From: Lepidostoma basale
Lineage: Eukaryota > Arthropoda > Insecta > Trichoptera > Lepidostomatidae
NCBI GenBank assembly: GCA_022606425.2
Contig: JAHDVF020001344.1
Coordinates: forward strand, 158,522 to 222,521
Direction: 5' to 3'
Length of the DNA: 64,000 nt
Positions 4,862 to 58,555 of this stretch are shown piece after piece. Under the pieces are notes generated by a model, which made no database searches, was not told the DNA's origin, and saw only the letters and a program-made list of their open reading frames with translations. Position numbers and translations under genes: made by a program. The stretch's first letter is position 1; every line of letters starts with the position of its first letter.

Positions 4862-5182
4862 GTTGTTTAATTGTTAATGAATAAACTTTGTTTTTTGTAT
4901 CACAGTTGTATTTTATTTTACACGACAGCTGTTTCATCAACCAATGTTGACATCATGAGGTGTTAAAATAATATATCAAATGTCAAATTTTCGTGATTTT
5001 TCGAATCATATGTGTATTTGTTCCTACGTCAATTCAAATTGACATAGGAACTGTAACACTTGACATAGGAATTGTAACACCTGATGATGTCAACATTGGT
5101 TGATGAAACAGCTGTCGCGTAAAATAAAATACAATTGTGATACAAAAAACAAAGTTTATTCATTATCAGTTTAAAATGTTAA
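4862..5182. repeat. Family A palindromic repeat with hammerhead-like arm
   Basis: Inverted arms 4865-4966 and about 5080-5180 share AACTTTGTTTT...CAATTGTATTTTA(T/C)TTTAC and TGATGATGTCAACATTGGTT. The centre holds a local repeat of TTGACATAGGAA. The left arm has a damaged core on the minus strand (CUCAUGA); the right arm keeps CUGAUGA. The family also occurs at 28.9, 34.9-35.1 and 46.9 kb. Confidence 0.75.
5085..5125 (+). ncRNA. Hammerhead-like ribozyme, family A
   Basis: CUGAUGA at 5091-5097, extra U, stem II GUCAAC/GUUGAU around AUUG, GAAA at 5105-5108, then the self-complementary ACAGCUGU and GUC. Predicted cleavage is after 5116. The closing 10.1-11.1 pair is G-U here rather than G-C. Confidence 0.5.
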
Positions 5183-5261
5183 GGTATCATAGTGTTTCGG
5201 TTAAAGCAATGGACTATCCAATTTGTTGACATGTGAGAATCTATAACTGTTTTAGTGTCAT

Positions 5262-5385
5262 TTGAATTCTCCACCAGAGCAAAGAAAGTGGGACAATCAC
5301 ACTGCCATCGCCGTAAATCGAACCCGGGACCTTTGGTGTGCCATGCACAGCTCTTGCCACTCTACCACAAAGATTATCAAGATTA
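5262..5385 (-). repeat. tRNA-derived SINE head
   Basis: On the minus strand a box A-like TGGTAGAGTGGC is followed about 30 bp later by a box B GGTTCGATT, then a GATGGCAGTGTGATTGTC body and TCTTTGCTCTGGT. The same body appears at 38480-38610 (minus), and TCTTTGGTCTGGTAGAAT continues it at 9993 and 56400. It is truncated, and no acceptor stem of a real tRNA is present. Confidence 0.65.
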
Positions 5386-5637
5386 TATTGCATCAAGCAT
5401 ATGGTTAAACTTCATATTACGTGTCAAATATATGTTAATAATTCCTGAAATCAAATTTCAAAAAAACTTATATTAATAAGCCCCCAACCGTTTTTTAAGA
5501 GAAAATATTATTTCACACATTTAATGTCAAAACAAATTACTTTACGACAATTAATTAATTAATGTTATTACATTTCACAAATGTATGGACACACAAGACG
5601 AAAGGTTAAAATATATATTCAAGAGGTACAAATGGAA

Positions 5638-5760
5638 ACATAAGTCGAGGAAGGGCCAAAAAAAAATGACTAAAAGGTGGATAACCACCTTTTAGTAATG
5701 CATTTTGGCATGATATATTTTTTTAGCCCTTCCTCGACTTATGCCCTTCCTCGACATGAG
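5638..5760. repeat. Small foldback element
   Basis: An inverted repeat of CATAAGTCGAGGAAGGGC (about 5639-5656) and GCCCTTCCTCGACTTATG (about 5727-5744), with an inner hairpin AAAAGGTGG/CCACCTTTT. A third short copy, CCCTTCCTCGACATGAG, follows directly. It is probably a tiny MITE. No clear target duplication was seen. Confidence 0.6.
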
Positions 5761-5772
5761 TTCAAAGTTGTG

Positions 5773-5815
5773 AAAATCGACGAACGTGCATGTCACGTTG
5801 TATGAATGTATAACG
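5773..5815 (+). repeat. RTE-like LINE 3' UTR fragment
   Basis: Matches the segment with GAAATCGACG, GTGCATG and TGTATGAATGT found in the 3' UTRs at 12.29, 14.05, 17.8 and (minus) 35.3 kb. Confidence 0.5.
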
Positions 5816-5969
5816 AAAATTATTTCAAAATAAAATAAAGTGGCGGTTCATCGGATATTTATATCTTTCTACCGATGATGTAGGTTTAAAGTCCAGAAAA
5901 TTAAATTCAATATAGGAAAAAAAATGTGTTTTTATAATCACAAAATTTTAATAGCTTTAATTATCGGAG

Positions 5970-6016
5970 TTTAATTGGTAAACTACAACAATGTTTGTTG
6001 TACTTTACCAATTAAA
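5970..6016. repeat. 47-bp inverted repeat
   Basis: TTTAATTGGTAAA...TTTACCAATTAAA with the inner TACAACAA/TTGTTGTA pairs. A compact hairpin of unknown origin. Confidence 0.55.
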
Positions 6017-7190
6017 TTCAGTACAACAATGTACTTCCTAGTCCGCTTCTGTCAAATAAACGTCCAGAAACAACAGGGCCATCCTTGGTATTATTTAATA
6101 CATGCAAGTGATTGCATCTCCAAGGGCCCCGAATTGCCCGGACGGGGACATTTATAGCTTTAATTTCCGCATTCTCGATATAAAAACTCTCTCCTCCGCA
6201 AATATTTCGTGTGATAACGAATTAATGTTACGACAATGCGAAACATAATCTTTTGTTTGACATTTCCAACTGACTGCTGATCAGTAGCGGTACATTTTTA
6301 TTAGTTATATTAAATATTGTAAGTCATAACAATAAAAAATGATTAATTTAAGTAATTGACAACGTGAATTTTATAATTACAAATTTTTTTATGAAAATAC
6401 TGCTGTAATCCACAAGAACATTTTTTATGAATCGAATACATTTTATTCTATTTTTTTGTTTGTCAATGCTAAGTACACGTAAAAAAGTCGAGACTAATAT
6501 ATTCAAAACGTTTTTTTATTCACTAGAAATACCGAAAATGTCACTTTATTGAAGCTTTCTTTGTTGTCCGGCATGTCCAGATCAACTGACATATTGTTTT
6601 TTTAATGCTGTATTTTTTCCAATGATTTGAATTCTTAAGACTTCAAGATATCCACATGAGAATGCCAGGAAGTAATAAAACGACATATGGTCGATAATAG
6701 ACGATAATAATTGGTTTCATTGTGTAAGTGAAAGTCAATCCAATTAATGGAGCCAAAAGGCATTCTTTACGGGATAAGATAACAACGTTGAGAGTTATCA
6801 TATTATAATAACAAAAAAATATTCAAGTAGTTAATTACCACGCGCAGCCACTGATGTCGGTTGGTATTCGGTGAATTTTCATCATCTTTAATGTAGGAAA
6901 ACATCGTTGCCATAACGAGGTATATCTCAAAGGGGGCAGAGGAAATGGTGGATTTTTTAATATTGCGCGCACAAAAGTGAAATTAAATCAAATATTAAAC
7001 ATGTCCTCAGATAAAAAGGAATATTTTATAAGCATGTCGTCTGCCAGTTAATCATTTTACAAAAAGGCTATTTTTAATGTTATAAGGAAATAGGCAGTGA
7101 TACAAAATACGATATTGTTACTTGTATTAAGATATAATTGGGTATATTAAAAACACTTCTGTAAAGCTTTTGTAGGTAATATTTATTTTA
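6017..7190. other. Unassigned sequence
   Basis: A short GC-richer patch lies at 6060-6150 (CAAGGGCCCCGAATTGCCCG). The remainder is AT-rich. No coding frame or known element recognised. Confidence 0.3.
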
Positions 7191-7194
7191 ACAA

Positions 7195-7400
7195 TTAACT
7201 AATAATTTAGCAAAAGTCTCATTGACAAAGAATGACCGAATCTCGTACATATTTTGTTCCATTTGATAATGCCGTAGAGAGACGAAACATGGCATTCCCT
7301 TAAATAATAATAACACTGGTATAAAACAGACGTTTTCGTTCGTATAAATTTTTGAATATGGACTATTAGATCATTGTTCAAGAAACAATGGAATTATTTA
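7195..7400 (+). repeat. Family B palindromic repeat, one arm
   Basis: ATTTGATAATGCCGTAGAG at 7261, then ACGAAACATGGCATTCCC and a downstream AAACAGACGTTTTCGTTC block, with the outer TTGTTCAAGAAACAATGG motif at about 7374. Core UUGAUAA at 7263-7269. Confidence 0.6.
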
Positions 7401-8025
7401 TATATTTTGCTATAGGAATTTAATATAGTGTTTTACTCACATAACGATATATATAAATTGTTTCTAAAACATTGATGTTCCGCTCTATATTATAATTCAA
7501 CATTTGACACAAGACATAAGCACTACATACGAAAATTTCTTTGTTTTTAATGTAGACCAGCTATAATAAAAAAATAAAGATAGAACATTACATAAAAACT
7601 TGTAAATAGTAACAAAATTGTTTAATTTTAAATTAGGAATGTAAATATGGTGACTTGGGTGGAAATAGTTTGAGCTAGTCCCATTCGATCTCTTGAGCTG
7701 AAACAACCTCCACCAACTTAGACTTTCCACTATTTCCCGAGGGTAACGATTTAAGGGGAGTTTCCCTGAAACAATGGAAATATCGTTCCCTCGAATATTT
7801 AACATTGTTTGCTCTTCTCTGAGATGACTCGTGAGAAGCGAGGTTACCTTATTTGTTTAAAGAATTATTTGTCGATATAACCACGAATTATTTGACTTAG
7901 CAGTCATGTAAAGCCATGAAATTTATACATTATTAATATGTTACCAGTAAATGTTTTAATCCGTTAATAACCCGCGTATGACTCGCTGCCACGTCGCTTC
8001 TCACGATTGTGAAGTAAGCTAGATA
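7401..8025. other. Unassigned; one 102-aa minus frame
   Basis: A 102-codon minus-strand frame (7497-7805) contains a plausible-looking N-terminal half, but I recognise no domain and no relative of it. It may be chance or a decayed element. Confidence 0.25.
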
Positions 8026-8106
8026 GATGTTTCAGGGTAGAGTAGTGTGGCGGTCTATTCTCTCTGCCTACTTTAACGGGGAAACGGCGTGATGGTTTCC
8101 TGTTGT
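8026..8106 (+). repeat. RTE-like LINE 3' tail
   Basis: GTGTGGCGGTCTATTCTCTC, TGCCTACTTTAACGGG and GACGGCGTGATGGTT-like sequence, matching the better copy at 15.2 kb with its GTTAGTTAG tail. Only the last ~80 bp remain. Confidence 0.65.
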
Positions 8107-8109
8107 TGT

Positions 8110-8548
8110 TGATTAACCATATTTTAACTACTTGTAGATTACTCCTTCTTTTTCTTCTTCCTTATTTAAGACTTATGTGGTCTGTTCTCCAGAGTGTTGC
8201 TCCTCCTGTGAGGTACCCAGCTGTCCTTCCATCTTTTAGGAGATCTTCCACGAGGACGAGTCCCATGAGGCTGATTATGCAATGCAATAAAGGGGAGTCT
8301 GGTGGTGTCCATTCTTTGAACATGACCTACCAGTCCCTTTTTCGCTGTCTGCTCCATATTCTGGTGTTCCTCACGCCCAGATTTCCCAGTGTCTTGCCTG
8401 CTATTGTCCTCAGTGTCTTCATTTCGGAAGTCCTCAAAACTTGTTTGGTCCTTACTGTGTCTGCCCTTGCTTCGACGCCATATGTTATTATTGATCTTAC
8501 GCATGCTTCCATTTGTTGTAGATTACATTTAATCAAAAACGTATACTA
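8110..8548 (-). pseudogene. LINE RT C-terminal remnant
   Basis: The minus strand encodes METEACVRSIITYGVEAR-like sequence (MEACVRSIITYGVEARADT), then KQVLRTSEMKTLRTIAGKTL, then after a frame change HVQRMD...LPFIALHNQPHGTRPRGRSPKRWKDSW. These are the RT thumb and the (RP)RGRPxKRWxD box that end many LINE ORF2 proteins. The frame changes between 8320 and 8340, so it is dead. Shorter relatives of this 3' end lie at 12.8, 20.45 and 29.5 kb. The long open frame on the opposite strand is only its shadow. Confidence 0.8.
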
Positions 8549-8559
8549 ATAGTGGTTCG

Positions 8560-9090
8560 AATAAAATATTTGTAAAGTTTTATGGTTTATTTGTGATATT
8601 TAGGAGTATTTAGTTTGGAGGAGGAGTATTTAGTATATTTTAATTTGGAGTATTTAGCATCGTTTAAACTAAAACCAGACTTAAGTTCAAATATAATTCG
8701 TATAATAATTTGATAACTTAAATAAGTATTTCGCTGTATCCCAGAAGGTAATGGAATAAGGAAATAATGATCAATATTGCGTTATGATATTCGTATAAGT
8801 TTATGCATTTTATTAGATTAGGTTCACGTTTATATATAATATAACGTTATTTATTCACATTAACTTTTCCAACTCTGTCAAGCAAAACTTTAGGAATTCA
8901 GTTATTTGAAGCGATATCACTACAACAGCTTTAGAAAGTATATCGAGAAGTCACAAAGCCCCCTTTTAAACCATCCCTCAGATATCTGTATGTATAAGAT
9001 TATATTTTTAAACACCATTTTTTTAAAGACTGTAGAATTAAAACAATAGAATTAGAATGTATTTTACATTTTTCAATATGAGCTGAAAAT
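8560..9090. other. AT-rich DNA, nothing recognised
   Basis: Contains a short local repeat (TATTTAGTTTGGAGGAGGAG, then TTTGGAGTATTTAG) at about 8600-8660. Otherwise plain. Confidence 0.35.
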
Positions 9091-9094
9091 CACT

Positions 9095-9205
9095 CATTAT
9101 TATGACGAAGGAATCTTGTCGTGTCCAGACTTGATCCCAAGTCCCTTTGATCAAGAGCCAAGCGATCTGTCCCCTAGACCACCACTCGAAAGTTGACGTG
9201 AAAAT
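9095..9205 (-). repeat. tRNA-like SINE, uninterrupted copy
   Basis: Second copy of the repeat interrupted by the hAT MITE at 0.7 kb. Minus-strand box A-like TGGTCTAGGGG and box B-like GATCAAGTC. Confidence 0.5.
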
Positions 9206-9324
9206 TGACACGAAGAACAATACATTAATTACTTATTTTAAAATATTAAATGCGTCTGGCATTATTTTATTAGTTGGTGTGAAATTATTTTTTAAAATTT
9301 TTTAAAGAATTAAATTAATTCTTC

Positions 9325-9600
9325 ATGGTTCGCCATAACTTTGTGTTGTAGATGTTTATTGTTTATTTTTTGTATACTTTGTGTACAACACTCTCATTTA
9401 TTAAAAAAACAATTAAATATCAAACATGATTCAGACAGTTTCGTTTCAGTGTTGACATTTGTAAACAATTGTATTATATTTAAAATATTTATATAATATC
9501 ACTGATGAAGGGCTGGTTAGTCCGAAACATGTTTGATATTAAATTTTTATTAATTTTTTTAAATAATTTAATAAGTATACAAAAATAGGAACATCAGTGA
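9325..9600. repeat. Family C palindromic repeat
   Basis: Arms: left TTTTTTGTATACTTTGTGTACAAC...AATATCAAACATG, right CATGTTTGATATTAAATTT...AAGTATACAAAAATAGG. The left arm has lost most of its core (ATTCAGACAGTTTCGTTTCAG); the right arm holds an intact hammerhead-like fold. The same family is at 26.7, 30.5, 30.8, 31.5, 48.3/54.1 and 58.4 kb. Confidence 0.75.
9495..9540 (+). ncRNA. Hammerhead-like ribozyme, family C (best stem I)
   Basis: Stem I is a perfect 7-bp pair, AAUAUCA (9495-9501) with UGAUAUU (9534-9540). Core CUGAUGA is at 9502-9508, then an extra A, stem II GGG/UCC closing CUGGUUAG, GAAA at 9523-9526, C, AU, and GUU. Predicted cleavage is after 9533. Stem III is only A-U and C-G around two bases, but ACAUGU is self-complementary, so it could form in a dimer. 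Activity is untested. Confidence 0.65.
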
Positions 9601-9659
9601 AATTATTACTATCGTTTTATTTTTTACGAAATAGTTTTGGATTCATTTCAAATTTTGGA

Positions 9660-9875
9660 GACTTTTCCTAAAATCTCACGAGTACTAATGGACATCTGGG
9701 AAAGCTGTCGAGAACTCAGTCAATATTATTGCCGGGTAATGGATGCAAATAACCGTCGCGGTGGGGTTTCCTCTGGAGTTGGTCAAGGTATGCTCGCAAG
9801 AAGTTCCGTCTAGTGGCGCAGTCCTGGACCGCTCTCGGGCTTGCCGCAGATGCAGGCTGGCCCAATTCAAAGCAA
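9660..9875. other. GC-richer unique island
   Basis: Balanced composition with no relation to the repeats in this window. Open on both strands for about 60-75 codons with no recognised domain. A conserved non-coding element is one possibility. Confidence 0.35.
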
Positions 9876-9984
9876 TGCTTATAATTATTATGAATCCATT
9901 TCCACTTAATTTAATTATCTACCGGAACATTTCAAATTGCTTTACCTGTCGCAATTTTGAGATATAAAGTCATTAACCAAAATT

Positions 9985-10245: not shown

Positions 10246-10429
10246 TTTAATTCCGTACTCTGAAAAGTGGATCAGAGGCCATTTAAAGTTTTTTTTCTGA
10301 TTATCGTTTCTTGAACAATGTTGTGTTATTAAATATGGACGAATATAAATTCCGTTAAACTTTCATATGAAGCACTTAATTTGTGGTGTGACATTATTAA
10401 ATAAAATAATAATACCCTTTTAGTATTTG

Positions 10430-10640
10430 TATCTAAAACACTTTATTTGGCTACACCAACCGGTTTCGCTCCCACCGGAGCTTCGTCAGGGTAAGAGAGT
10501 AAACTGATAATAAACGTGGGAGCTTCGTCAGGGTTAAAAAGTAAACTCAGTTTACTCTTTCAACTTGACGAAGCTCCGGTGGGAGCGAAACCGGTTGGTG
10601 TTACGAAATAAAGTGGTGTAGATACAAATACTAAAAGTGT
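10430..10640. repeat. Family G palindromic repeat
   Basis: Inverted arms ACTTTATTTGG...ACACCAACCGGTTTCGCTCC and GGAGCGAAACCGGTTGGTGT...AAATAAAGTGGTG. The inner part duplicates CGTGGGAGCTTCGTCAGGGTT and an AGTAAACT/AGTTTACT hairpin. The right arm core is UUGACGA (position 3 changed). A related pair is at 48.1 kb. Confidence 0.75.
10454..10493 (-). ncRNA. Hammerhead-like ribozyme, family G
   Basis: Minus strand: stem I UACC/GGUG, core CUGACGA (complement of 10483-10489), extra A, stem II GCUCC/GGAGC around GGUG, GAAAC, CG, GUU. ACCGGU is self-complementary. Every core base of CUGANGA and GAAA is present. Confidence 0.6.
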
Positions 10641-10679
10641 ATTTTTGTCTTATTCAATAAATTCCGTTTTTTTTAAATT

Positions 10680-10750
10680 TTATTATATTTAATGAGAATG
10701 GCATGTTTCTTCGGGATATTATCAAACATTTGAATTCATACAATATAATA
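10680..10750 (-). repeat. Family B fragment
   Basis: TTTTATTATATTTAATGAGAATGGCATGTTTC...GATATTATCAAA matches the family B arm. Confidence 0.45.
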
Positions 10751-10754
10751 ACTT

Positions 10755-11478
10755 TAGATAAACTTAAGGCGTTAACACTGTGGAATTCCATAATGACGAA
10801 TTTTTATGAATTAAAACAATGTTTTTTCCACTTTTGAGTTTATTTTTCTCGACATGTTTCGAAAGCCTTCACCTTCATCATCGGGAGTTTATATCGTTCT
10901 CCCGATGATGAAGGTGTAAGCTTTCGAAACATGTCGAGAAAAATAAACTCAAAAGTGGAAAAAACAGTATTTTAATTCATAAAAATTCGTTTTTTTGTAT
11001 ACAAATACTTGTAGACCAATACTGGATTTTTACCCATTGTGGGTTAATAACTTTTTTTAAGGATTAATTGTATATCAATAGAGACGAAGATGTAAGTTAT
11101 TTGGAAACAGAATATGGTAGTCGAGGCGTTTACAGGACTTATGACCTATCATTGGTTGGGTTAAGCGATCACTTTAACAACATTGACCATTTCTCCCTTC
11201 TTACGACACCACGTCTGACAAATTTTTGGAACTTGTATATATGTTAATATTTTTTAATAACTTCTCTGTTGGTAGGTCCATCTAAACTAGCGCCATCTAT
11301 TAAGATAATTTGTAAGAATGGCGGGATGGTGAATGTTGCTTAACATAAAATGATCGCTTAACCCAACCAATGACAGGTCATTAGTCCTTTTAACGCCTCG
11401 ACTACCATATTCTGTTCCCAAATAATTTACATCTTCGTCTCTATTGAGATACAGTTAATTCATAAAAATTCGTCAATA
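10755..11478. repeat. Family D palindrome, split by a foldback insertion
   Basis: Arms 10760-10888 and 10895-10990 share ATGACGAATTTTTATGAATT, CCACTTTTGAGTTTATTTTT and CTCGACATGTTTCGAAAG. The centre is a hairpin TTCATCATCGGGAG/CTCCCGATGATGAA. After 10990 the arm is interrupted by 10991-11454 and resumes at 11455. A second copy is at 40.2-40.4 kb; decayed ones are at 32.2-32.5 and 46.14-46.21 kb. It has GAAACATGTC and stem I-like UCUC/GAGA, but the core region CCGAUGAUGA does not fit CUGANGA without an insertion. Confidence 0.75.
10991..11454. mobile_element. 464-bp foldback element with 19-bp flanking duplication
   Basis: Long inverted arms of about 110 bp: 11065-11178 (ATAGAGACGAAGATG...TTGGTTGGGTTAAGCGATCA) and 11351-11452 (TGATCGCTTAACCCAACCAA...CATCTTCGTCTCTAT). 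The sequence TTAATTCATAAAAATTCGT occurs on both sides (10972-10990 and 11455-11473), inside the family D arm, as expected for a target-site duplication. A single arm of the same element lies at 43565-43680. There is no coding capacity. The 19-bp duplication is longer than usual for cut-and-paste DNA elements. Confidence 0.75.
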
Positions 11479-12350: not shown

Positions 12351-12469
12351 TTCATCTCTCACCTGTCTCATCTCATCATCATCCTGTGGCGTTTTTTCTA
12401 AGTAAGTTTAGGTTTACTTATTATAATCTAGGATATATTCTTGTACCGTGGTGATCTCTTAACCGACAT

Positions 12470-13334: not shown

Positions 13335-13525
13335 TATTGTTTCTTGAACAATGGTGTAAATATCCATGTTAAACAATAGAAGTTTTATTACATTTTATGG
13401 GAATTACATGTTTCGCCCTTCTAAGGCACTATCAAATACTTTACATTTGATAATGCCGTAGAAGGGCGAAATATGTTATTCCCATAAAATATAATAAAAC
13501 TTATAGAAAACGAAAAATTTTGGTT
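13335..13525. repeat. Family B palindrome, clean two-armed copy
   Basis: Arms GTTTTATTACATTTTATGGG and CCCATAAAATATAATAAAAC with the centre ATCAAATACTTTACATTTGAT. On the plus strand: UUGAUAA (13447-13453), extra U, stem II GCC/GGC around GUAGAAG, GAAA at 13468-13471, AUGUU. The minus arm has UUGAUAG and an intact GAAACAUGU. Confidence 0.75.
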
Positions 13526-13639: not shown

Positions 13640-13800
13640 TAACTTTTTGTATTAAACCACGGTGTGGTTATTTTAATTGATGCCAACTAGTTTCGCTTGG
13701 ACCCAAGCTTCATCAGGGCAATATAATAATTAGGTCCAAGAAAAACTAGTTGGCAACAATTCAAATTACCATTCTGTGGTTAAATTACTTAAGTTAAAAA
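13640..13800. repeat. Family T palindromic repeat
   Basis: Arms TATTAAACCACGGTGTGGTTA...GATGCCAACTAGTTTCGCTTGG and CCAAG...ACTAGTTGGCAACAATTC. The right arm is internally deleted (core lost). Related copies are at 25.0, 39.2 and 54.4 kb. Confidence 0.75.
13681..13720 (-). ncRNA. Hammerhead-like ribozyme, family T
   Basis: Minus strand: stem I UGCC/GGCA (4 bp), core CUGAUGA (complement of 13710-13716), extra A, stem II GCUUG/CAAGC around GGUC, GAAAC, UA, GUU. ACUAGU is self-complementary. All canonical core bases are intact. Confidence 0.65.
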
Positions 13801-18609: not shown

Positions 18610-18905
18610 CGTTAAAGGTTAAGGCGTTAAACACTGTGAATTTCAATTGTTATTTGGAAAATAATTATTAACGCTGTTTAACCCACTTTATTTATTAATT
18701 ATTTTAAGAGAATACAAATAAAATTCACAACAGGTTTCAGACGTGACATTCTACATCTTCAGGTGTAAATATATAACTTACCACGTGTGGGTTCGGGTTA
18801 TAAATTTAAACCTGATGATAGAGGAGGTCACCTCCAAAACATGTTGTGTATAATATTTTAAATAAATGTGGATTAAACAGTGTTTATAATTATATTCCGA
18901 ATATC
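18610..18905. repeat. Family J palindromic repeat
   Basis: Arms CTGTTTAACCCACTTTATTTA...CACAACAGGTTTCAGACGTG and ACATGTTGTGTATAATATTT...TAAATGTGGATTAAACAG. Plus arm: CUGAUGA at 18812-18818, hairpin GGAGG/CCUCC, but AAAA instead of GAAA. It shares the GGCGTTAAACACTGTG flank with families D and the 47.46-kb fragment. Confidence 0.6.
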
Positions 18906-24959: not shown

Positions 24960-25165
24960 AATACAAAACACTTTGTATTGAACCACGGTATAGTTATTAT
25001 ATTTAATCCCAACTAGTTTCGCAACATCTAAAAGTTTATACTTTTGACGTTGTACTGCCCTGATAACGCTTAAATCCAAGCGAAACTAGTTGGCATCAAT
25101 TATAATAACCATACCGTGGTTAAAAACATTTTTTTCATTTTTTGTTTAAACGTCTAACCACAAAG
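24960..25165. repeat. Family T palindrome
   Basis: Arms TTGAACCACGGTATAGTTAT and ATAACCATACCGTGGTTAAA. Plus arm: stem I UGCC/GGCA, core CUGAUAA (position 8 G to A) at 25060-25066, stem II GCUU/AAGC, GAAACUAGUU. The left arm has lost its core. Likely inactive. Confidence 0.7.
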
Positions 25166-28857: not shown

Positions 28858-28950
28858 CGCGGCATCATCAGGCGTTACAAACAACTGTTTTTGATGATGT
28901 CAACATAGGTTGGCGAAACAGCTGTCGCGATCGTTTAAATATATCAATAA
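28858..28950 (+). repeat. Family A repeat, short two-armed copy
   Basis: Plus arm: UUGAUGA (position 3 C to U) at 28891-28897, U, GUCAAC/GUUGGC stem, GAAA 28915-28918, CAGCUGUC. The left arm is reduced to ATCGCGGCATCATCAGG. Confidence 0.6.
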
Positions 28951-30449: not shown

Positions 30450-30935
30450 ATAAATGTTATTTTATGTTCGCCATACTTTAAGTTGTAGATGTTTTATTTG
30501 TCTTTTTCATTTTTATGTACTTTGTATATACAACACTAACTTTAAAAAAAAATAATAATAACATATCAGACATGTTTCGGACAACCGGCCCTTTTTCAGT
30601 GATACATATTAAAAATGTACGTATTTAAAAGAAAATTTCTCTTTTTATTTTTTATATACTTCGTATATACAACACAAACATTATTATTATTTTAATTAAC
30701 TAGACATGTTTCGAACAAACAGTCTTTCTTAAGTGATAATAATTAATAAATCTTTATAACATCTGTCAGATCATGTTCAGAATTTAATAATATTTTAAAT
30801 ATGTATCTTTATAATATGTATCACTGAAGAAGGACTGGTTTTCCGAAACATGTCTACGTAATTAATTTTTTTTTAATGTAAGTGTTGTATATACAAAGTA
30901 TATGAAAAAGAAAAAAAGAGACATAAAGCATCAAA
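30450..30935. repeat. Family C repeats, two adjacent copies
   Basis: Minus arms at 30568-30605 (core CUGAAAA, stem II GGGC/GUCC) and 30707-30750 (core CUUAAGA), and a plus arm at 30818-30860. Each is flanked by TACTTTGTATATACAACAC or its complement. Confidence 0.7.
30818..30860 (+). ncRNA. Hammerhead-like ribozyme, family C
   Basis: Core CUGAAGA at 30824-30830, extra A, stem II GGA/UCC, GAAAC-AU-GUC, predicted cleavage after 30854. Stem I is damaged on the 3' side (UACGU in place of UGAUA). Confidence 0.45.
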
Positions 30936-31445: not shown

Positions 31446-31675
31446 AGTAATGCAAACATAGAAGATATTATAAAATTGTTAAGAAATATGTTTGCAAATA
31501 TACAATTGTTTACAAATATTTAAAATATTATTATAAAAATGTTTATTTATAATATGTATCGCTGAAGAAGGACCGGTTGTCTGAAACATGTCTGATATGT
31601 AATTTTATTTTTTTAAAGTAAGTGTTGTATAAATAAAGTATATAAAAAAAGAAAAAGACAAAAGTTTAAAATATA
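31430..31675. repeat. Family C repeat, right arm
   Basis: Contains the fold annotated at 31556-31598 followed by GTAATTTTATTTTTTTAAAG and GTGTTGTATAAATAAAGTA. Confidence 0.7.
31556..31598 (+). ncRNA. Hammerhead-like ribozyme, family C
   Basis: Stem I GUAUCG/UGAUAU (two G-U pairs), core CUGAAGA 31562-31568, extra A, stem II GGAC/GUCU, GAAA 31583-31586, CAUGUC. Predicted cleavage after 31592. Confidence 0.5.
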
Positions 31676-34089: not shown

Positions 34090-34305
34090 ATATAAATAAT
34101 AGGAATGAAAACGTCTGACTTCTAGGAGTTTCGCCTTTCTTAGGCATTATCAAATGTTGCATTTTTTCATAAGGCATTATCAAAAACTTTTGATAATGCC
34201 TTAGAAGGGTGAAACATGTCATTATATCTAAAATATAATAAAACTACCAGAAAGCAGACGTTTTCATTAATATTAATTATTTAATATGGAGTTTTACATC
34301 GAAGG
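34090..34305. repeat. Family B palindrome
   Basis: Both arms have UUGAUAA: plus at 34190-34196 followed by U, GCC/GGU stem, GAAA 34211-34214, CAUGUC; minus in 34130-34160 with GCC/GGC. Outer motif AACGTCTGACTTCTAGGAGTTTC / ACTACCAGAAAGCAGACGTTTTC. Confidence 0.7.
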
Positions 34306-34924: not shown

Positions 34925-35142
34925 TTACCATTTTAAACTGTTAAATTAAACAACTTTGTTCTGTGTATCACAATTGTATTTTACTTTACATTACAGCTGT
35001 TTCGTATACCTATGTTGACATCATCAGGTGTTGTCAATACCTGATGATGTCAACATAGGTTGACGAAACAGCTGTCGCGTAAAATAAAACACAATTGTGA
35101 TACATAAAACAAAGTTATTTAATTTAACAGTTTAAAGTTAAT
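34925..35142. repeat. Family A palindrome, well preserved
   Basis: Arms of about 100 bp: TTTAAACTGTTAAATTAAAC...CACAATTGTATTTTA and TAAAATAAAACACAATTGTG...TTTAACAGTTTAAA. The minus arm keeps CUGAUGA and GAAACAGCUGU, but stem II is GUCAAC/GUAUAC with a two-base mismatch. Confidence 0.8.
35036..35090 (+). ncRNA. Hammerhead-like ribozyme, family A
   Basis: Core CUGAUGA 35041-35047, extra U, stem II GUCAAC/GUUGAC (6 bp, perfect) around AUAG, GAAA 35065-35068, ACAGCUGU self-complementary, GUC. Predicted cleavage after 35076. Stem I in this copy is short. Confidence 0.6.
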
Positions 35143-35409: not shown

Positions 35410-36697
35410 TTAGGTCCTTACATATGAAATTGGCGTTTTGCCGTACTGGCAACTTTGATCTCAAATATCTTCTCTTTGGTTAGGAATTCCAAATTCAAAT
35501 TTGTACAGCTATTTACTCAAGTATTTGTGTTTCGAAAATTATAATTCATTTGTTTTTTCCTCAATTGTTTTTTTTCTTTGCGTCACTCAGTTTACAAAAT
35601 GGAAAACTTGAAATATCGTGTTATTTACGAGTACGAGTTCCACCGTGGCACCAGTGATGCAGAAACGGCTCGAAGGATTAATGATGTGTATGGCGACGGT
35701 GCCGCAAAAGAAAACACAGTGCGTTTTTGGTTGCAACGTTTTCGTTCTGGAAATTTCTACCTGCAGAACAAGCCCCGTGGACGGCCGGAGACCAAAGTTG
35801 ATAATGAAGAATTGAAGGCTATTGTGGAAGCGGATCCATCGCAAATCACGTCCGAGTTAGCTGCAGGCTGCGGTGTTAGTGATAAAACTGTTTTAATCCA
35901 CTTGAAGCAAATTGGGAAGGTAAAAAAGATTGAAAGGTGGGTACCTCACGAATTGAGTGAAGCAAATCAACAAACGCGCGTTGACTGCTGCGTTGCATTA
36001 CTCAACCGGCACAATAATGAAGGGATTTTGAATCGAATCATTACCTGTGATGAAAAGTGGATCCTGTATGATAATCGGAAGTGCTCATCGCAATGGCTGA
36101 ACCCTGCCGAACCAGCCAAACCATGCCCCAAGCGAAAATTGACTCCAAAAAAGTTACTTGTGAGCGTTTGGTGGACTAGTGCTGGTGTCGTTCACTACAG
36201 CTTTCTTAAATCTGGCCAGACGATTACGGCTGATGTCTTTTGTCAGCAACTGTAAACCATGATGGAAAAGCTAGCTGCTAAACAACCGAGGCTGGTTAAT
36301 CGCTCTAGGCCACTGCTGCTTCATTATAACGCTAGACCACACACTGCACAACAGACGGCTACCAAATTAGAAGAGCTTCAATTGGAATGTCTAAGACATC
36401 CACCGTACTCTCCGGACCTTGCCCCAACAGATTATTATTTTTTTTCGAAATTCGGATAACTTCTTGCAAGGGAAAAAATTCAACTCCGATGGGGCAGTCC
36501 AAACCGACTTCAAAGATTTTATTGATTCCCGTCCGACTGGTTTTTTTAGTAAAGGGATCGATGAACTACCTGTGAGATGGCAAAAGTGCATAGATAGCAA
36601 TGGTACATACTTTGATTAAATAAATATATTATATTTAAAAAAAATCAACTTAATGTTCCTCCCGTAAAAAACGCCAATTTTATATGTAAGGACCTAA
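35410..36697 (+). mobile_element. Full-length mariner transposon
   Basis: 1288 bp. Terminal inverted repeats TTAGGTCCTTACATAT...AATTGGCG (35410 on) and its complement ending TGTAAGGACCTAA at 36697, differing at one position in the first 26. Flanked by TA target duplications (35408-35409 and 36698-36699). Length and structure are typical of mariner. It lies in unique AT-rich DNA between an RTE fragment and an AT-rich region. The transposase inside is broken, so it cannot move by itself but may be mobilised in trans. Confidence 0.95.
35599..36619 (+). pseudogene. Mariner transposase, three disabling changes
   Basis: Cut-and-paste DNA transposase of the mariner family with the D,D34D catalytic triad. 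The start MENLKYRVIYEYEFHRGTS is chosen over an upstream Met at 35578 because family proteins start MEN. An N-terminal helix-turn-helix pair (about residues 5-110) with NKPRGRPET between, then WVPHELSE, then the first catalytic Asp in ITCDEKWILYDNRK. Defects: an in-frame TAA at 36253 where relatives have Gln (CQQL-QTMMEK); the second catalytic Asp is Tyr (HYNARPH instead of HDNARPH, about 36325); a frameshift in a T-run near 36438 just after TDYY, which holds the third Asp. The C-terminus ...PVRWQKCIDSNGTYFD is otherwise intact. Confidence 0.95.
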
Positions 36698-40184: not shown

Positions 40185-40440
40185 AATCCCAAATCACGAA
40201 TTTTTATGAATTAAACACTGTTTTTCCACTTTTGAGTTTATTTCTCTCACGCCTTCTTTTCTTACACTTTCATCATCGGGAAAACGATATAAACTTTCGT
40301 TCTCCCGATGATGAAGATGTAAGCCTTTGAAACATGTCGAGAAAAATAAACTCATAAGTGGAAAAACAGTGTTTTAATCCATAAAAATTCGTCATTATGG
40401 AATTCCACAGTGGTAACGCCTTCAGTTTAACTAAAGAAAA
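40185..40440. repeat. Family D palindrome, second copy
   Basis: Arms with GAATTTTTATGAATTAAACACTG, TTTTTCCACTTTTGAGTTTATT and their complements. The centre is CATCATCGGGAAAACGAT / TCGTTCTCCCGATGATG. The right flank ATTATGGAATTCCACAGTG continues further than the left. Confidence 0.75.
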
Positions 40441-42589: not shown

Positions 42590-42770
42590 TTAGTGTTAAA
42601 TTGAGCTTAAAGCTAACGACCCGGTACCTTCCCATAAAAACAAATCGTTCATTCTAATATGCACTTTTACACAATTGAATCCAAAATGGCGTCAGACCAT
42701 TTTCTTTTTTGAGGGAAAGTCACGTTCTGGCGAGAGGAGGGAAGATCCGACGACCGAAGAAGACTTAAAT
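42590..42770. other. Balanced unique region
   Basis: AAAATGGCGTCAGACCATTTTC and CTGGCGAGAGGAGGGAAGATCC. No family recognised. Confidence 0.3.
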
Positions 42771-42959
42771 AGAAGTTTTCTTCTCAATACAAATTATTTC
42801 GTTGTTTTTAATGGATAAAATCCCAAATTGAATATAAACATATGTTTCCTTTCTTCTAATATCTTCTAATAAAACCACAGGCCCGCTTTTTATAATTAAA
42901 TGGTATTTTACATTTTGAATAAAGAGATTATTTCAATCGTCAGTAGCTAACAATTCTAA

Positions 42960-46849: not shown

Positions 46850-47005
46850 AGTCTATTGTTTTGGCCGAAAACTTTACATTTGATATATTATTTTAACACC
46901 TGATGATGTCAACATAGGTTGACGAAACAGCTGTCATGAAAAATAAAAATACAATTGTGATACATAAAACAAAGTTTTTTAATCTAACAGTTAATAAAAT
47001 ATAAT
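46850..47005 (+). repeat. Family A repeat, right arm only
   Basis: TTATTTTAACACCTGATGATG...CAATTGTGATACATAAAAC...TTAATCTAACAGTTAA. Confidence 0.75.
46892..46945 (+). ncRNA. Hammerhead-like ribozyme, family A
   Basis: Core CUGAUGA 46900-46906, extra U, perfect stem II GUCAAC/GUUGAC around AUAG, GAAA 46924-46927, ACAGCUGU, GUC with predicted cleavage after 46935. Stem I pairs UUUUAACA with UGAAAAAU imperfectly. Confidence 0.55.
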
Positions 47006-48049: not shown

Positions 48050-48220
48050 AATATTAATACACCTTTATTAGTTTTACCACCACTTTACTCTGTTACAACC
48101 AACCGGTTTCACTCCCGCCGAAGCCTCGTCAGAGTTTCAAAAGACAGTGAGTGTCTTTTGTAACCCCGACGAAGCTCCGCCGGGAGTGAAACCGGTTGAT
48201 TGTCACAAAATAAAGTTTAT
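48050..48220. repeat. Family G palindrome
   Basis: Arms ACAACCAACCGGTTTCACTCCCGCCGAAGC and GAAGCTCCGCCGGGAGTGAAACCGGTTGATTGT, centre AAAAGACA/TGTCTTTT. The plus arm core is CCGACGA. Confidence 0.75.
48101..48137 (-). ncRNA. Hammerhead-like ribozyme, family G
   Basis: Minus strand: core CUGACGA (complement of 48126-48132), extra G, stem II GCUUC/GGAGU with G-U pairs around GGCG, GAAAC, CG, GUU, with ACCGGU. Confidence 0.45.
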
Positions 48221-48224
48221 TTCT

Positions 48225-48326
48225 ATTTTTCTTTTTTATACACTTTATATATGCAACACTGATATTAAAAAAAATAAATTATATAGACATGTTTCGAACA
48301 AACAGTCCTTCTTCGGTAAAGATACA
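48225..48326. repeat. Family C repeat, left arm (split by Helitron)
   Basis: TACACTTTATATATGCAACACTG...AGACATGTTTCGAACAAACAG, continuing at 54071. Removing the Helitron restores GATACA-TATTTTATAAATATGTATC, the natural centre of a family C palindrome. Confidence 0.8.
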
Positions 48327-53600: not shown

Positions 53601-54070
53601 TTTAATTTCACTTAAAATATTAAGGAAAAAATTTAAGACTGGACGTTTAATGGTTTAAACATAAAGCTGAAAAAGATAAATATTAACTTTTTTTTGGGTG
53701 ACATCTTTAGGGTAACGTTTGAACTACACTATATTATTTAATCATAACGCGCTTTTGCACAGCTACGTTTAAGACCAATTGGCATCAAAAACTCATTTCA
53801 GACTTTTTGTAAGCTTGCCACCTTGGTAATAATGTCCAGCCTTCAATTGTTCAATTCACATTAGTATTATTCAAGTTCACAGCAAGTTTGCTTGGATTAA
53901 AAAATTTTTTTAAATATATGAACTGAATTAGGATACACACACTCTTGCACCTATACACATGTCATTTTATCCAATAAAATAATTGATATTGAACTTTTGT
54001 ATTTCTTTAATATATATTGGGTGTACTTAGGTGTAATCTAGCAATAGCGAAGCGTTGCCGGGTCAGCTAG

Positions 54071-54225
54071 TATTTTATAAATATGTATCTTTACTGAAGA
54101 AGGACTGTTTGTCCGAAACATGTCTATATACCTAATTTTATTTTTTTAATATCAGTGTTGTATATAAAAATTGTATAAAAAAGAAAAATAGAAATAAACC
54201 ATCATTACAACACAAAGTATGGCGT
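54071..54225 (+). repeat. Family C repeat, right arm (split by Helitron)
   Basis: Continues the repeat interrupted at 48326; ends ATCAGTGTTGTATATAAAAATTG, the complement of its left arm. Confidence 0.8.
54085..54130 (+). ncRNA. Hammerhead-like ribozyme, family C
   Basis: Core CUGAAGA 54094-54100, extra A, perfect stem II GGAC/GUCC around UGUUU, GAAA 54115-54118, ACAUGU, GUC with predicted cleavage after 54124. Stem I is weak (UA pairs only). Confidence 0.5.
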
Positions 54226-54443
54226 ATATAGAAGAAACAAAATAAAGCGATTGAAAAACTAATAAAAGTGTATCAATATTATTATTTAATATATTTACGT
54301 CTACTGTTGCAGAATTTAAAATATTTAAATGAATGTAATTTTTTGTTCTTAATATAAAGCACTCACTTTGTGGATAGACATTTTAAATAATTATATAAAT
54401 AAAACAACTTTGTATTTAACCACTGTAGGGTTATTATATTGAT

Positions 54444-54482
54444 GCCAACTAGTTTCGCTTGGACCCAAGCTTCATCAGGGCG
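54444..54482 (-). ncRNA. Hammerhead-like ribozyme, family T
   Basis: Minus strand: stem I GCC/GGC, core CUGAUGA (complement of 54472-54478), extra A, stem II GCUUG/CAAGC around GGUC, GAAAC-UA-GUU. All core bases canonical. Confidence 0.65.
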
Positions 54483-54516
54483 GTATAACAACTGTAACAA
54501 CTGTAAGTTGTTATAC

Positions 54517-54556
54517 TGCCCTGATGAAGCTTGGGTCCAAGCGAAACTAGTTGGCA
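54517..54556 (+). ncRNA. Hammerhead-like ribozyme, family T
   Basis: Stem I UGCC (54517-54520) with GGCA (54553-54556), core CUGAUGA 54521-54527, extra A, stem II GCUUG/CAAGC, GAAA 54543-54546, CUAGUU with predicted cleavage after 54552. ACUAGU is self-complementary. Confidence 0.65.
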
Positions 54557-54637
54557 TCAATATAATAACCCTACTGTGGTTAAATACAAAGTTGTTTTGT
54601 TTATATAATTATTTTAAATTTTTGTGTTCTTACGTAT

Positions 54638-55150
54638 AACTAACTAACTAACTAACCATCATGTCATTTTCCCGGAGGGGTAGGCAGAGAGGATGGATCA
54701 ACACAATGTTCTGTCCTGGCATACCTCTCGGGCTTCCTCTACATTAATTCATCGTACCATGCACGCACGTCGATTATTCCGACTTCGATTGTGGCCGCTT
54801 TTTAGTAATTGATTAATTTGGTTGCGCCATGTTTCCCTCGGCTTCTTTTTCCACTCACGCGGCTTGTGCACAACTTTTTAACCATTCTTCTCTCATCCAT
54901 TCGTTCCATATGTCCAAACCATCTCAAGGAACATTTTTTAATTTTATCCATGATGAAGTCATCTGCCTTACATTTCTCTCTTATTTCATCGTTTGGTATT
55001 CTATCATACAACGTTTTCCCGCACATTATTCTTAGTGATCTCATTTCTACGACGTTTATCCTGCTTTCATCCTTCTTTTGCTAGCTCCAAGCTTCACTTC
55101 CATACATGAGGGTTGGCACTAGAACTCTGTTGTGTACTGCCATTTTTGCT
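54638..55150 (-). pseudogene. RTE-like LINE ORF2 end and 3' UTR, best copy
   Basis: Minus strand, read right to left: SKRRMKAG-type start, MRSLRIMCGKTLYDRIPNDE, IREKCKADDFIMDKIKKCSL, RWFGHMERMDERRMVKKLCT, then GKRSRGKHGATKLINY (80 codons open, 54802-55044), then 3' UTR and (GTTA)n tail ending at 54640. The boxes IMCGxTLxDRIPNxEIR and RWFGHMxRMDE are typical of insect LINE ORF2 ends. This copy ties the many 3' UTR fragments to one family. Confidence 0.8.
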
Positions 55151-55770
55151 GCTGTGTGTTCTTACGTATTGTAGGGCAAAATAGAGTTTACTGCCTATTT
55201 AACTGGCACTGCGGCTAATGATATCTTGTAATATCAAAAATCGATTACAATTTTCTCTCGACGATGTGTATTACAATATTTGAACGATATCAAAAGATAA
55301 TCCGATTGAAAATTTATCGATAATTAAATCTGGTGCAACCACCCCCCGAAGCTGTAGCCCGTAACTCTGGTATATCAATACAGATTTAAAATAAATTGAT
55401 TTGTGCCTTTCGCATTATGATTGACAGAATTTCCTCACCCCTCACGTCATTCAATATTATTATATATTCACAATGTCAGACACATCTCTCCCCGGGGGAG
55501 CTGTGGTTCTCGAGTCACGAACATTCTTTGATCTATAAATTTAAAATAAAGGAAAATATTTGCTGCTTTAGCGGTATTTAATATTTTTTTCTTGGTACAA
55601 AGTATTAATTCAAAAAATTCTTTGAATATTTTGTTAATAATGAAAAAACTTGCGTATTCACCGCATGTTGGTTTATATTCAAAATACTAAAAAACACATA
55701 ATTTTTATTCGATAAATCGGGGTTTTCTGTTATTTGAAAAAAAAAGTTTTGTTTTGAAAATCATTTTTTA
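55151..55770. other. Unassigned sequence
   Basis: AT-rich with a few balanced blocks (CAACCACCCCCCGAAGCTGT, CTCCCCGGGGGAGCTGTGGT). No family or frame recognised. Confidence 0.3.
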
Positions 55771-55774
55771 TTAA

Positions 55775-55950
55775 GATTTGGATACTATGGCATATGGTTC
55801 TGAGTCGTGGACAATGACACTAAAAGAACAACAAAGAATCTACTGGTTTGAGAATAGAATACTTAGAATGATCCTGGAACCCAGACGCGGTGTTGCAGCG
55901 TGAACTTGGAGGCATAGGATCAACTAAGAGATTCGTACGAATGAAACATA
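55775..55950 (+). pseudogene. LINE RT fragment of a different lineage
   Basis: MAYGSESWTMTLKEQQRIYW-FENRILRMILEPRRGV, then RHRIN-EIRT corresponds to the LxYGSETWTLTxKxExxLxxFERKILRxIxGP box after the LINE RT domain. Only about 170 bp; a frameshift after RRGVAA. Confidence 0.75.
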
Positions 55951-56319
55951 TTTAAAAAAAAGGATTTTGTTTATTGAATTTATACTTAAAATTTTAAAAA
56001 TTAATATCTACCGAAAAATGCAACGCAACAATATATAAAACTTATAAGTATATGTTACTCCTATGAAAGTCTTATTTTATAAAAATTCAAAGGCGTTAAA
56101 TTATCCCCCGGCCCCACGTGGTTATTGTAATGTACCTAATGTAAATGCAAAACAAGTGTGTGCAAACCACTCCGTCTCATCCCTTTCCATCAAATATGGC
56201 GTCAAACATGCTTAGCTCACAGTTTTTCGTGTGTGGCATGCAATTTCATCACTTAGTCATTCTATTTACAACCCTGCATGCCGGGGGTGAAATACGACAA
56301 GTCACTTCTTGATATCTAG

Positions 56320-56640
56320 ATACTTTTGTTTGGCATTAGCTATAACTGCCACACTAAAGGCCCCAGGTTCGATTCTCCACAATGAAAGTATAAAAAAATC
56401 TTTGGTCTGGTAGAATTCACGTGATAATAAAAAGGGTTAGCTACCTGTTACATGTCATGAGAATTAATAGTTAAAAATTGTATATAGTAATCGGGTTCAA
56501 GTAACCTCATGTTTACAAAATATGGAAAGCAATGGAAAACTACCGTATTATATGCCCAAGTGACATCCCAGGAGCTAGCAATAAATATTAGATTATTGTG
56601 CAAACCAATCCCTAGAATTAAATCTATAAAAAAAACTATT
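56320..56640 (+). repeat. tRNA-derived SINE, longest body
   Basis: Box B GGTTCGATTCTCC at 56367, then TTTGGTCTGGTAGAATTCAC, GGTTCAAGTAACCTC, ATGGAAAGCAATGGAAAACT, CAAGTGACATCCCAGGAGC, CAAACCAATCCCTAGAATTAAA end. Upstream CATTAGCTATAACTGCCAC is a poor box A. Confidence 0.7.
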
Positions 56641-56899
56641 CAGTGTCCCAAAACTGACCCACAGATCTATTAAAAGAGGAAAAAGAAGAAAAATTCCAGG
56701 AGGAATATACTCGTACGAATACACTTCTCGGTATCTTCACACTGAGTATTTAGATATTAGTGTTTTAAAATAACTTTTCATTTAATATTCCTTCTCTAGG
56801 TTCTGAAATATTTAAAAAAACAGTTATTAAAATAAATTACTATATGCAGCATAAGTATATAATCTAATGTATCTTTTGGTAATCTGCAACATACTTAAT

Positions 56900-57085
56900 A
56901 AAAAAAATATTATAATGTGTGGAAGTGACATGTTTTGTCTATCTAAGGCTGTCTGGAATCAATTGTCTTTTCAAACATTCGATAACGCCTTAGGCGAAAC
57001 ATGTCATTCCCGTAAATTATATAATATTAAAACTTTCATCATAGAAAACAGACGTTTCATACGTATTCTTTTTTTTCTGTTTTGG
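56900..57085 (+). repeat. Family B arm
   Basis: ATTCGATAACGCCTTAGGCGAAACATGTCATTCCCG then ATAATATTAAAACTTTCATC and GAAAACAGACG. Core UCGAUAA. Confidence 0.6.
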
Positions 57086-57104
57086 AAATATTCTGTATTT
57101 TTGA

Positions 57105-57465
57105 GTTAGCGTTGTTTACCTGTACAGCGCAATGGTTAAACTCTAAACCCCCGTTCCAACATGGCATATTTTACGGCGTTACCCGCGGGCTGCAGTCATC
57201 CAGCGTGTTGTGTGTTCCGCAGGGGCCCAAATCGCCAGACCGTTGCATCAGCACAAAAAAGGATCCACTAAAATATTCAAATATTTTAGGACGCTTAAAA
57301 ATATCATCGATTTTTGCAACCCCCTTCCCCGTGCCGTAATACTTAGCCTCCCTCTGGGGGTGAACGGTTTAAGTTGAGGGGTGTAAAATGTCTCGTTAAA
57401 TGGTGTTGAATTTGATTGAAAAATCATAAATTTCTCCCCGAGGTTTATCGCCGAGTCTGCAGTGT
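57105..57465. other. GC-richer unique island
   Basis: CAAACCCCCGTTCCAACATGG-like, GTTACCCGCGGGCTGCAGTC, CCGCAGGGGCCCAAATCGCC. Open 85 codons on plus and 107 on minus, without recognised domains. Single-copy here. Confidence 0.35.
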
Positions 57466-58275
57466 TTTTACGACTCAAATATGTTGATTGGATGTATCTA
57501 AAAAGGAATTGAATATTTGAGTGATTCAATATTTTGAAACTAGCTTCAAATATACATGCGCTTGAAATCAATAAAATTCAAATAACTTGTTATGCTTCCT
57601 CATACTTCAATTCGCACACTGCAAATAAATCTTCGCTTAGTGTTGCACTAACATAGAAAACTTGAACAAATATGATTAAATTCGTACATTTATTTTATTA
57701 TTTATGGGAATTTTTTTAATTCATCACCATACATAAGAAACTAAAAAACAATTATTTATATAGTCCCTTTATTTTTTGAATTTTTTTTTATGTTTTTAAT
57801 AATTCATCGCACATAAAACTTTGAGATATGTCTTAAAAATTTTAGTAAGATTTATTATAATAAAATAAATAATAAGAAAGGAGTCAATAAAATATATCTA
57901 CTATTGAACGACTAGAATAACGTTTGAAATGTTTTTTTGTAATTTTTGTCTTTTGTAAACAGAATTTATTTATGAAATGAAATTCGTCGTATATAGAGCC
58001 TGTTAAAACTAAATCAGGGACCAAACTTCTTTCCCAAATACAACCCGAACTGTATTTCTATAACTGGGTACCGTATTTTAAAATAATAAAAATAGAGTTC
58101 AGTGTTGTTTTTGTTAACAAAAAATTATAACGCATCAATAGTGGGGTATCAATAATGAGAGGCCTCTCACGATAATTCCAAATTGAATCGAATTAATAAT
58201 GAAGTAAAATAATGAAATAATAAAAATGAAAACTTAACATAACAATGTGTATTGAAAAATAATGAACAAGTTATT
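57466..58275. other. AT-rich DNA, nothing recognised
   Basis: No repeat family or frame recognised. Confidence 0.35.
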
Positions 58276-58279
58276 AATA

Positions 58280-58555
58280 TTTATTCTATGTTCGCCATAC
58301 TTTGTGTTGTAGAGGTTTTATTTGTCCATTTTTATATAAATTATATACACAACACTACTCAAATTACATATCAGACATGTTTCGGACAACCAGTCCTTCT
58401 TCTGTGATACATATTATAAAGATACATATTTAAAATATTATAAAATTGTTTACAAATTTGATCAATTTTGACAGATGTTTAAAATATTTATTTGGAACTT
58501 TAAGATTTATTTACACAAAGTATATAAAAATAAGAAAAGACAAATAAGTTATTAG
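58280..58555 (-). repeat. Family C palindromic repeat
   Basis: TATGTTCGCCATACTTTGTGTTGTAGAG, TATATACACAACACTAC, then minus arm: stem I GUAUCA/UGAUAU, core CAGAAGA (position 4 changed), extra A, GGAC/GUCC, GAAACAUGUC. Right arm reduced. Confidence 0.65.

Follow-up and report, generated by a model that had tools for sequence, protein, structure and literature searches.

What are the many palindromic repeats in a 64,000-nucleotide stretch of the Lepidostoma basale genome, and why do families that look otherwise unrelated appear to share one design? The stretch, which we call the window, covers positions 158,522 to 222,521 of contig JAHDVF020001344.1 (G000:C447:158522-222521 in our naming) within a 769-Mb genome of 1572 contigs. 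An original prediction, made from the sequence alone, held that the families share a hammerhead-ribozyme layout with covarying stems and no other similarity, and that they are remnants or non-autonomous relatives of Penelope-like elements (PLEs) or of animal retrozymes. Our analysis indicates that the palindromes are very probably 5'-truncated PLE insertions, each composed of two pseudo-long terminal repeats (pLTRs) that carry minimal type I hammerheads and are joined head-to-head, with both 3' ends facing outward. We favor this reading because the hammerhead core is near-invariant, stem I covaries, the copies form head-to-head pairs, the families share the start of an open reading frame (ORF), the same layout has a set place beside ORFs with a GIY-YIG domain, and one palindrome of the window, that of family P, matches the DNA of such loci. 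Penelope pLTR insertions with dimer-type minimal hammerheads are a known kind of sequence; the variety found within one stretch is unusual.

A strict scan of the window for CTGANGA, a stem II of at least 3 bp and GAAAC, permitting an extra length of 0 or 1 before stem II, found 12 hammerhead-like cores, all 12 of which have one extra base before stem II. Applied to 200 dinucleotide-preserving shuffles of the window, the same scan found 0.015 cores on average and never more than 1. A relaxed scan covered the window and the additional loci L001-L051, and permitted up to two core changes and extra lengths of 0, 1 or 2 while retaining a stem II of at least 4 bp, GAAAC and a palindromic stem III. 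It returned 75 matches (71 without overlapping loci) against none in reversed sequences, and the extra length was 1 in 75 of 75. The lineage PLE-1, introduced below, is over-represented in these relaxed counts (30 of 75), because the loci of the GIY-YIG search were fetched for GIY-YIG. Nothing was found to favor chance patterns in AT-rich repeats as the source of the layout, and the two controls make them exceedingly improbable. Inside the window lie 20 relaxed matches, nine of which combine an exact core, a stem II of at least 4 bp, a palindromic stem III and at least three of the four inner stem I pairs; together with the 12 strict cores found under other terms, this makes the predicted figure of at least ten full cores about right. 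In the four families first described (A, C, G and T), the stem II pairs, the palindromic stem III and the GUC or GUU site are present where they were expected, and stem I pairs as described in C, G and T, while that of family A is imperfect. Beyond these four, the window contains families E (core CCGATGA), D (TTGATAA) and P (degenerate), as well as one copy of a family with a U4A core (Table 1).

We aligned 12 hand-picked representatives with their loops cut out, comprising ten families, two of which contribute a second subfamily. Positions G5, A9, G10.1, G12-A13-A14, A15.1 and U16.1 are invariant in all 12, and the pairs G10.1-C11.1 and A15.1-U16.1 expected of a hammerhead are present; C3 and G8 are found in 11 of 12, the exception being family D with U3/A8, and U4 and A6 are retained in 10 and 11 of 12, respectively. 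The core CUGANGA...GAAA is exact in eight representatives, one has U3/A8, and three show one change at U4 or A6. The U3/A8 double change has been seen in nature and shown to be active (PMC3088659). Outside the window, at L002 1991-2054, the arms of a family D pair differ, one having U3/A8 and the other G3/C8; it is a single case, and the G3/C8 arm was not counted as covariation since it is one copy located at the centre of a palindrome.

Stem II is paired in 48 of 48 cells of the alignment, although pairing there was a criterion for selecting the representatives, as was the palindrome. Stem I was not used in selection, and its inner four pairs are formed in 40 of 48 cells, with families A and D the weak ones. 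The covariation score of stem I is 0.966 compared with 0.246 when shuffled, and none of 500 shuffles reaches it; related sequences can exceed such shuffles, and the value is to be read as strong rather than as a probability. Position H17 is C in 55, T in 13, A in 2 and G in 1 of the 71 relaxed matches, so that 70 of the 71 predicted cleavage sites would obey the NUH rule. The extra base is T in 50, A in 20 and C in 1 of the same matches, and U in seven and A in five of the representatives. An extra base at the same place, position 10 between A9 and G10.1, is a feature of the (+) hammerhead of chrysanthemum chlorotic mottle viroid, where it is an A, where U raises the rate and where C or G are harmful (PMC3705267). 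The viroid hammerhead is a single ribozyme in a replicating circular RNA, whereas the layout here would belong to a retrotransposon. That the extra base is nearly always A or U agrees with a catalytic constraint, an argument that is weakened because the window is 68% A+T.

The closest known hammerheads are the minimal type I ribozymes of PLEs reported by Cervera and de la Pena in 2014 and by Lunse, Weinberg and Breaker in 2017, as described in PMC7761336, PMC6466107, PMC6155905 and PMC10085705. The repeats share with them the type I order, a stem III that hardly exists and is palindromic, permitting dimers, and the location in a pLTR. They differ in that much of the material here consists of solo head-to-head pairs, and may differ in that all relaxed matches here have an extra base after A9. 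Among the papers searched, none joins Penelope, Lepidoptera and hammerhead ribozyme.

The arrangement of the copies is equally distinctive. Pooling hits within 400 bp of one another from the scans and from a custom covariance model described below, with family labels assigned by reading, we count 28 neighbouring hits, of which 17 are head-to-head, 6 tail-to-tail and 5 on the same strand. Sixteen of the 17 head-to-head neighbours belong to one family and one is mixed; all six tail-to-tail neighbours join different families. Same-family pairs on opposite strands are head-to-head in 16 of 16 instances, and the pLTR search with PLE-1 gives eight neighbouring pairs in the same -/+ order. Measured from the core start and leaving out the reference copy, the ends of PLE-1 arms fall into two ranges, +89 to +107 and +140 to +154, apart from +115 in the diverged copy L016 and +166 in L002. 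Where both ends of a PLE-1 pair could be measured (L027, L028, L029, L042, L046 and L049), one arm is ~40-50 bp longer in six of six, and this longer arm extends over the ATG (+99) and the opening codons MNFHQEISVKSFDY. In the window families the tail is only indicated, by flanks that differ in length in the G pair and in the T pair.

An ATG downstream of the core followed by similar first codons, the likeness being judged by eye, is present in 14 of 24 copies examined. In the window, these starts lie at +92 to +97 (MSHHKLSA, MPHHKLTA, MSIHKVSA, MEFHSVNA, MVMYHSVLA, MLRYHSVS and MEFYI) and, in one family D copy, at +69; outside the window they lie at +88, +99 and +119. The families therefore have head-to-head pairs and similar ORF starts in common, and of the proposal that they covary with no other similarity only the covariation stands. 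Exact 12-bp repeats, probably target-site duplications, flank the family G pair (Table 1) and an L019 pair. As described in PMC3846280, Penelope elements of the rotifer Adineta vaga likewise have head-to-head inverted pLTRs, a short tail on one arm, pLTRs that run into the first ORF codons and junction palindromes, together with target-site duplications of the kind that a few pairs here seem to show. Their tail is 31 bp, compared with ~40-50 bp in PLE-1, and most arms of the window pairs, in contrast to theirs, are trimmed nearly as far as the hammerhead. Solo head-to-head pairs, a one-arm tail and a few probable target-site duplications, all as reported for such elements, support the proposed kinship with Penelope.

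Further support comes from coding loci. A genome search for GIY-YIG gave 62 matches, the best 30 of which were taken as loci; ORFs of 758 aa at C236:971207 and C742:6956 are among the results. Of the 30 loci, 19 carry the hammerhead layout at a distance of 376-472 bp 3' of GIY-YIG and on its strand. Seventeen of the 19 belong to lineage PLE-1 and two to lineage PLE-2, and the presence of the layout 3' of the ORF in two lineages again favors a PLE origin. In L025, the custom model places the layout 359 bp 3' of GIY-YIG. Pfam detects the GIY-YIG domain in five of six ORF pieces scanned from PLE-1 and PLE-2. Eight public protein relatives of the ORF, at 41-45% identity, comprise two with reverse transcriptase (RT) and GIY-YIG, two with RT only, three with GIY-YIG only and one with neither, and six of the eight have PF26215. 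L040 contains FYKRYVDDILAIW, a putative RT motif; the L040 piece scanned has no Pfam match. Judged from these ORF pieces, the layout-bearing GIY-YIG loci have what we read as Penelope architecture. Within the window, the family P pair matches the DNA of PLE-2 loci (L035, L036, L039, L025 and others; E down to 1.9e-11), and the link of families A, C, G and T to PLEs is supported by their anatomy. Some of the GIY-YIG matches are of other kinds: in L022 (C102) and L024 (C729) the domain lies inside long bacterial-looking ORFs, presumably UvrC-like and from symbiont or contaminant contigs in the assembly, and L023 resembles a host gene of SLX1 type. A 415-bp palindrome at window 11054-11468 shows no clear hammerhead layout in the scans, and part of it recurs in L025 near GIY-YIG.

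Palindromes that in some pairs carry target-site duplications, in a window that also holds mariner transposase fragments, might instead be foldback DNA transposons or miniature inverted-repeat transposable elements with a conserved DNA site in their inverted repeats, the hammerhead likeness being accidental. Such an origin would leave unexplained that both stems covary inside one arm, that the invariant positions are specific to hammerheads and that the layout adjoins GIY-YIG ORFs, and the variable truncation in the middle together with the mostly bimodal outer ends in PLE-1 also argues against it. We consider it highly improbable.

If the palindromes are pLTR insertions, their formation may resemble that described for PAc, a Poseidon element of Anolis that also has a hammerhead at the junction of pLTR and ORF (PMC11167929). 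There, cutting and extension affect both target strands, and the tail is explained by two adjacent internal sites at which reverse transcription starts. The ORF of PAc starts at stem II, whereas the ATG lies ~95 bases after the core start here, and PAc RNA cleavage requires protein. By analogy, an element whose pLTR has a very short palindromic stem III, one extra base at position 10 and an ORF start ~95 bases after the core start would have both target strands cut, and each broken end would prime its own cDNA, one per start site. Reverse transcription would thus proceed from two nearby start sites, the two cDNAs would be joined in mid-insertion, and arms that are cut back would yield short palindromes. 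Pairing of two palindromic stem IIIs could create a double hammerhead able to cleave multimeric PLE transcripts, a mechanism published for the PLE variants that PMC6466107 cites; self-cleavage of the hammerheads here is something that we infer. Most likely, the window's solo copies are dead by-products.

Several observations weigh against this reading. Coding partners were found for PLE-1 and PLE-2 only, and none for A, C, G and T. The PLE-1 pLTR search also gives two neighbouring pairs in +/- order, both partial matches; 10 of the 24 copies examined (including C, U4A, K and PLE-2) have no clear ORF-start match; and flanking repeats reach at least the 95% level of the null in only 6 of 21 pairs, with L042 probably reflecting a shared neighbouring repeat. 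PLE-1, whose pLTR copies are for the most part 96-99% identical (47 matches, with 40 scored of 287 candidates), has the altered core CTGTCGA (A6U), U4C or U4A cores occur in other families, and A6C in a phage hammerhead is reported with a rate below 0.1 per min (PMC3088659). The arms carry sequence from both sides of the predicted cleavage site, and therefore their templates were uncut there.

These last points bear on an alternative that is compatible with pLTR insertion, namely that the layout persists because it serves the PLE ribonucleoprotein as a signal for binding or folding, in recognition, the start of reverse transcription or RNA pairing, with cleavage incidental or lost. It would account for an altered core in recent PLE-1 copies and for arms copied through an uncleaved site, and it fits the report that PAc catalytic mutants, dead for a cleavage that needed protein in any case, still inserted in vitro (PMC11167929). 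It sits less well with core residues that are retained in 8 of 12 representatives, with the joint change of C3 and G8 in family D, and with an extra base that is, with few exceptions, A or U, the bases tolerated by a catalytic hammerhead (PMC3705267), though the genome is AT-rich. We regard this alternative as unlikely on balance, yet worth keeping in view. With less confidence still, we consider that the hammerhead fold may be under selection for a non-cleavage job such as ribonucleoprotein recognition or template RNA pairing, such that U4 and A6 drift in mobile lineages and the stems, extra base, GAAA and palindrome stay fixed.

A further difficulty for the pLTR reading is that Rfam models, searched at gathering cut-offs and at E up to 10, find no hammerhead in the window. 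In the genome, one locus exceeded the cut-off among 73 scored of 94533 candidates. This locus, L001 (C844:789780-789896), is the sole Hammerhead_1 match over the cut-off among the candidates scored, and by eye it has a T between core and stem II as well as an 8-base palindrome. The proposed covariance-model check thus failed in the window with Rfam and worked with a custom model: trained on 13 copies of families C, G and T, the latter lists 24 window places at E up to 0.14, 13 being its training copies, and recovers family E, absent from training, at 4e-5 (its E-values are rough). Family A is not listed by this model in the window, which we link to its longer stem II and stem III. Single-strand folding of monomers brings only two of eight sequences to a z of at most -2, and by itself folding energy thus gives no support for structure. 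Free cofolding of 11 sequences as dimers formed the intermolecular palindromic stem III for some (for example the family A copy at 46900) and other dimers for others, and for this reason was not used as proof. Searches of solved structures gave nothing useful.

The head-to-head model also leaves one array unexplained. In L010 (C447:80001-90000), which lies 69-79 kb upstream of the window, members of the U4A family form head-to-tail direct repeats, with 6-7 units at 2692-9980 spaced at ~970-bp steps, one step being ~2 kb. Six units bear the motif CCAGACGATGGCAGCGAGCTGCCGAAACCGGTC or a near copy of it, with core CAGACGA in which U4 is altered. The head-to-tail order is that of satellites or retrozymes, and together with the type I strand order it recalls animal retrozymes, tandemly repeated elements that lack autonomy, carry type I hammerheads and spread by way of circular RNA. 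The L010 unit is longer than the 150-450 bp given for repeats of animals (PMC7229834), searches of the window with classical models come up empty, and the window families are head-to-head pairs or single arms, with same-strand neighbours in only 5 of 28 instances within 400 bp. A retrozyme origin therefore seems hardly likely, and the retrozyme kinship that was originally suggested fits the window families poorly, though the related L010 family has the head-to-tail order.

Table 1. Hammerhead-like copies, palindromes and target-site duplications in the window
Feature	Position	Strand	Source or remark
Family A hammerhead layout, stem III ACAGCTGT, extra T	5081-5116	+	Strict and relaxed scans
Family A opposite arm, core CTCATGA	4924-4959	-	Relaxed scan
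Family A palindrome, head-to-head arms	4866-5174		
Family A hammerhead layout	35041-35076	+	Strict and relaxed scans
Family A opposite arm, damaged stem II, ORF-like start MVMYHSV at +96	34992-35027	-	
Family A palindrome	34932-35136		
Family A hammerhead layout, lone arm	46900-46935	+	Strict and relaxed scans
Family A copy, core TTGATGA	28891-28926	+	Relaxed scan
Family C hammerhead layout, 8-bp stem I	9502-9533	+	Strict and relaxed scans
Family C hammerhead layout, 3-bp stem II	30824-30854	+	Strict scan
Family C hammerhead layout, 8-bp stem I	31562-31592	+	Strict and relaxed scans
Family C hammerhead layout	54094-54124	+	Strict and relaxed scans
Family C copy, core CTGAAAA	30569-30599	-	Relaxed scan
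Family C copy, core CCGAAGA	48286-48316	-	Relaxed scan
Family C copy, core CAGAAGA	58374-58404	-	Custom model, relaxed scan
Family G hammerhead layout, ORF-like start MSHHKLSASYE at +95	10458-10489	-	Strict scan
Family G opposite arm, core TTGACGA	10565-10596	+	Relaxed scan
Family G palindrome	10394-10660		
Family G pair, left target-site duplication ATAAATTCCGTT	10345-10356	+	
Family G pair, right target-site duplication ATAAATTCCGTT	10657-10668	+	
Family G hammerhead layout, extra G	48101-48132	-	Strict scan; read otherwise by the relaxed scan
Family G opposite arm, core CCGACGA	48166-48197	+	Relaxed scan
Family T hammerhead layout, ORF-like start MSIHKVSALY at +97	54447-54478	-	Strict scan
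Family T opposite arm, hammerhead layout	54521-54552	+	Strict scan
Family T palindrome, arm identity 93%	54380-54619		
Family T pair, possible left target-site duplication TTTTTTGTTCTTA, imperfect	54339-54351	+	Score 9, below the null 95% level of 11
Family T pair, possible right target-site duplication TTTTGTGTTCTTA, imperfect	54620-54632	+	
Family T hammerhead layout	13685-13716	-	Strict scan
Family T copy, core CTGATAA, extra C	25060-25091	+	Relaxed scan
Family E, core CCGATGA, extra T, stem I TTCTC/GAGAA	10902-10935	+	Custom model
Family E opposite arm, ORF-like start MEFHSVNALSLSKV at +93	10851-10884	-	
Family E copy inside palindrome 40185-40404	40305-40338	+	
Family D, core TTGATAA (U3/A8)	34189-34219	+	
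Family D opposite arm	34124-34154	-	
Family D copy inside palindrome 13377-13505	13446-13476	+	
Family D opposite arm	13406-13436	-	
Family P palindrome, degenerate hammerhead arms 18729-18762 (-) and 18807-18850 (+)	18648-18906		Matches DNA of PLE-2 GIY-YIG loci
U4A family copy, core CAGAAGA, without stem I	1993-2024	+	Relaxed scan

Other signals in the window are minor. Pfam searches of 10 of its 45 ORFs turned up mariner sequence and no part of a PLE; the mariner (Mos1-type) transposase fragments lie on the + strand at 35545-36252 (Transposase_1 and HTH_48) and 62069-62437 (HTH_48). Rfam matches to mir-5880 and mir-875, and two of those to mir-2985, fall on family T and A palindromes and reflect their long hairpins; the microRNA-like scores of mir-5880 and mir-875, at 54462-54537 and 35000-35068, are below the gathering cut-off. 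At 42714-42836 on the + strand there is a weak match to drz-agam-2-2, which resembles the hepatitis delta virus ribozyme (16.9 bits, E 4.7, gathering 38) and is probably due to chance.

The Rfam models used here overlook the minimal hammerhead class. What hammerheads do in Penelope elements is, according to PMC7761336, not known. With about ten families in one genome, the core variants U3/A8, U4C, U4A and A6U, and copies of mixed ages, L. basale provides a test set for whether these elements need catalysis or the fold.

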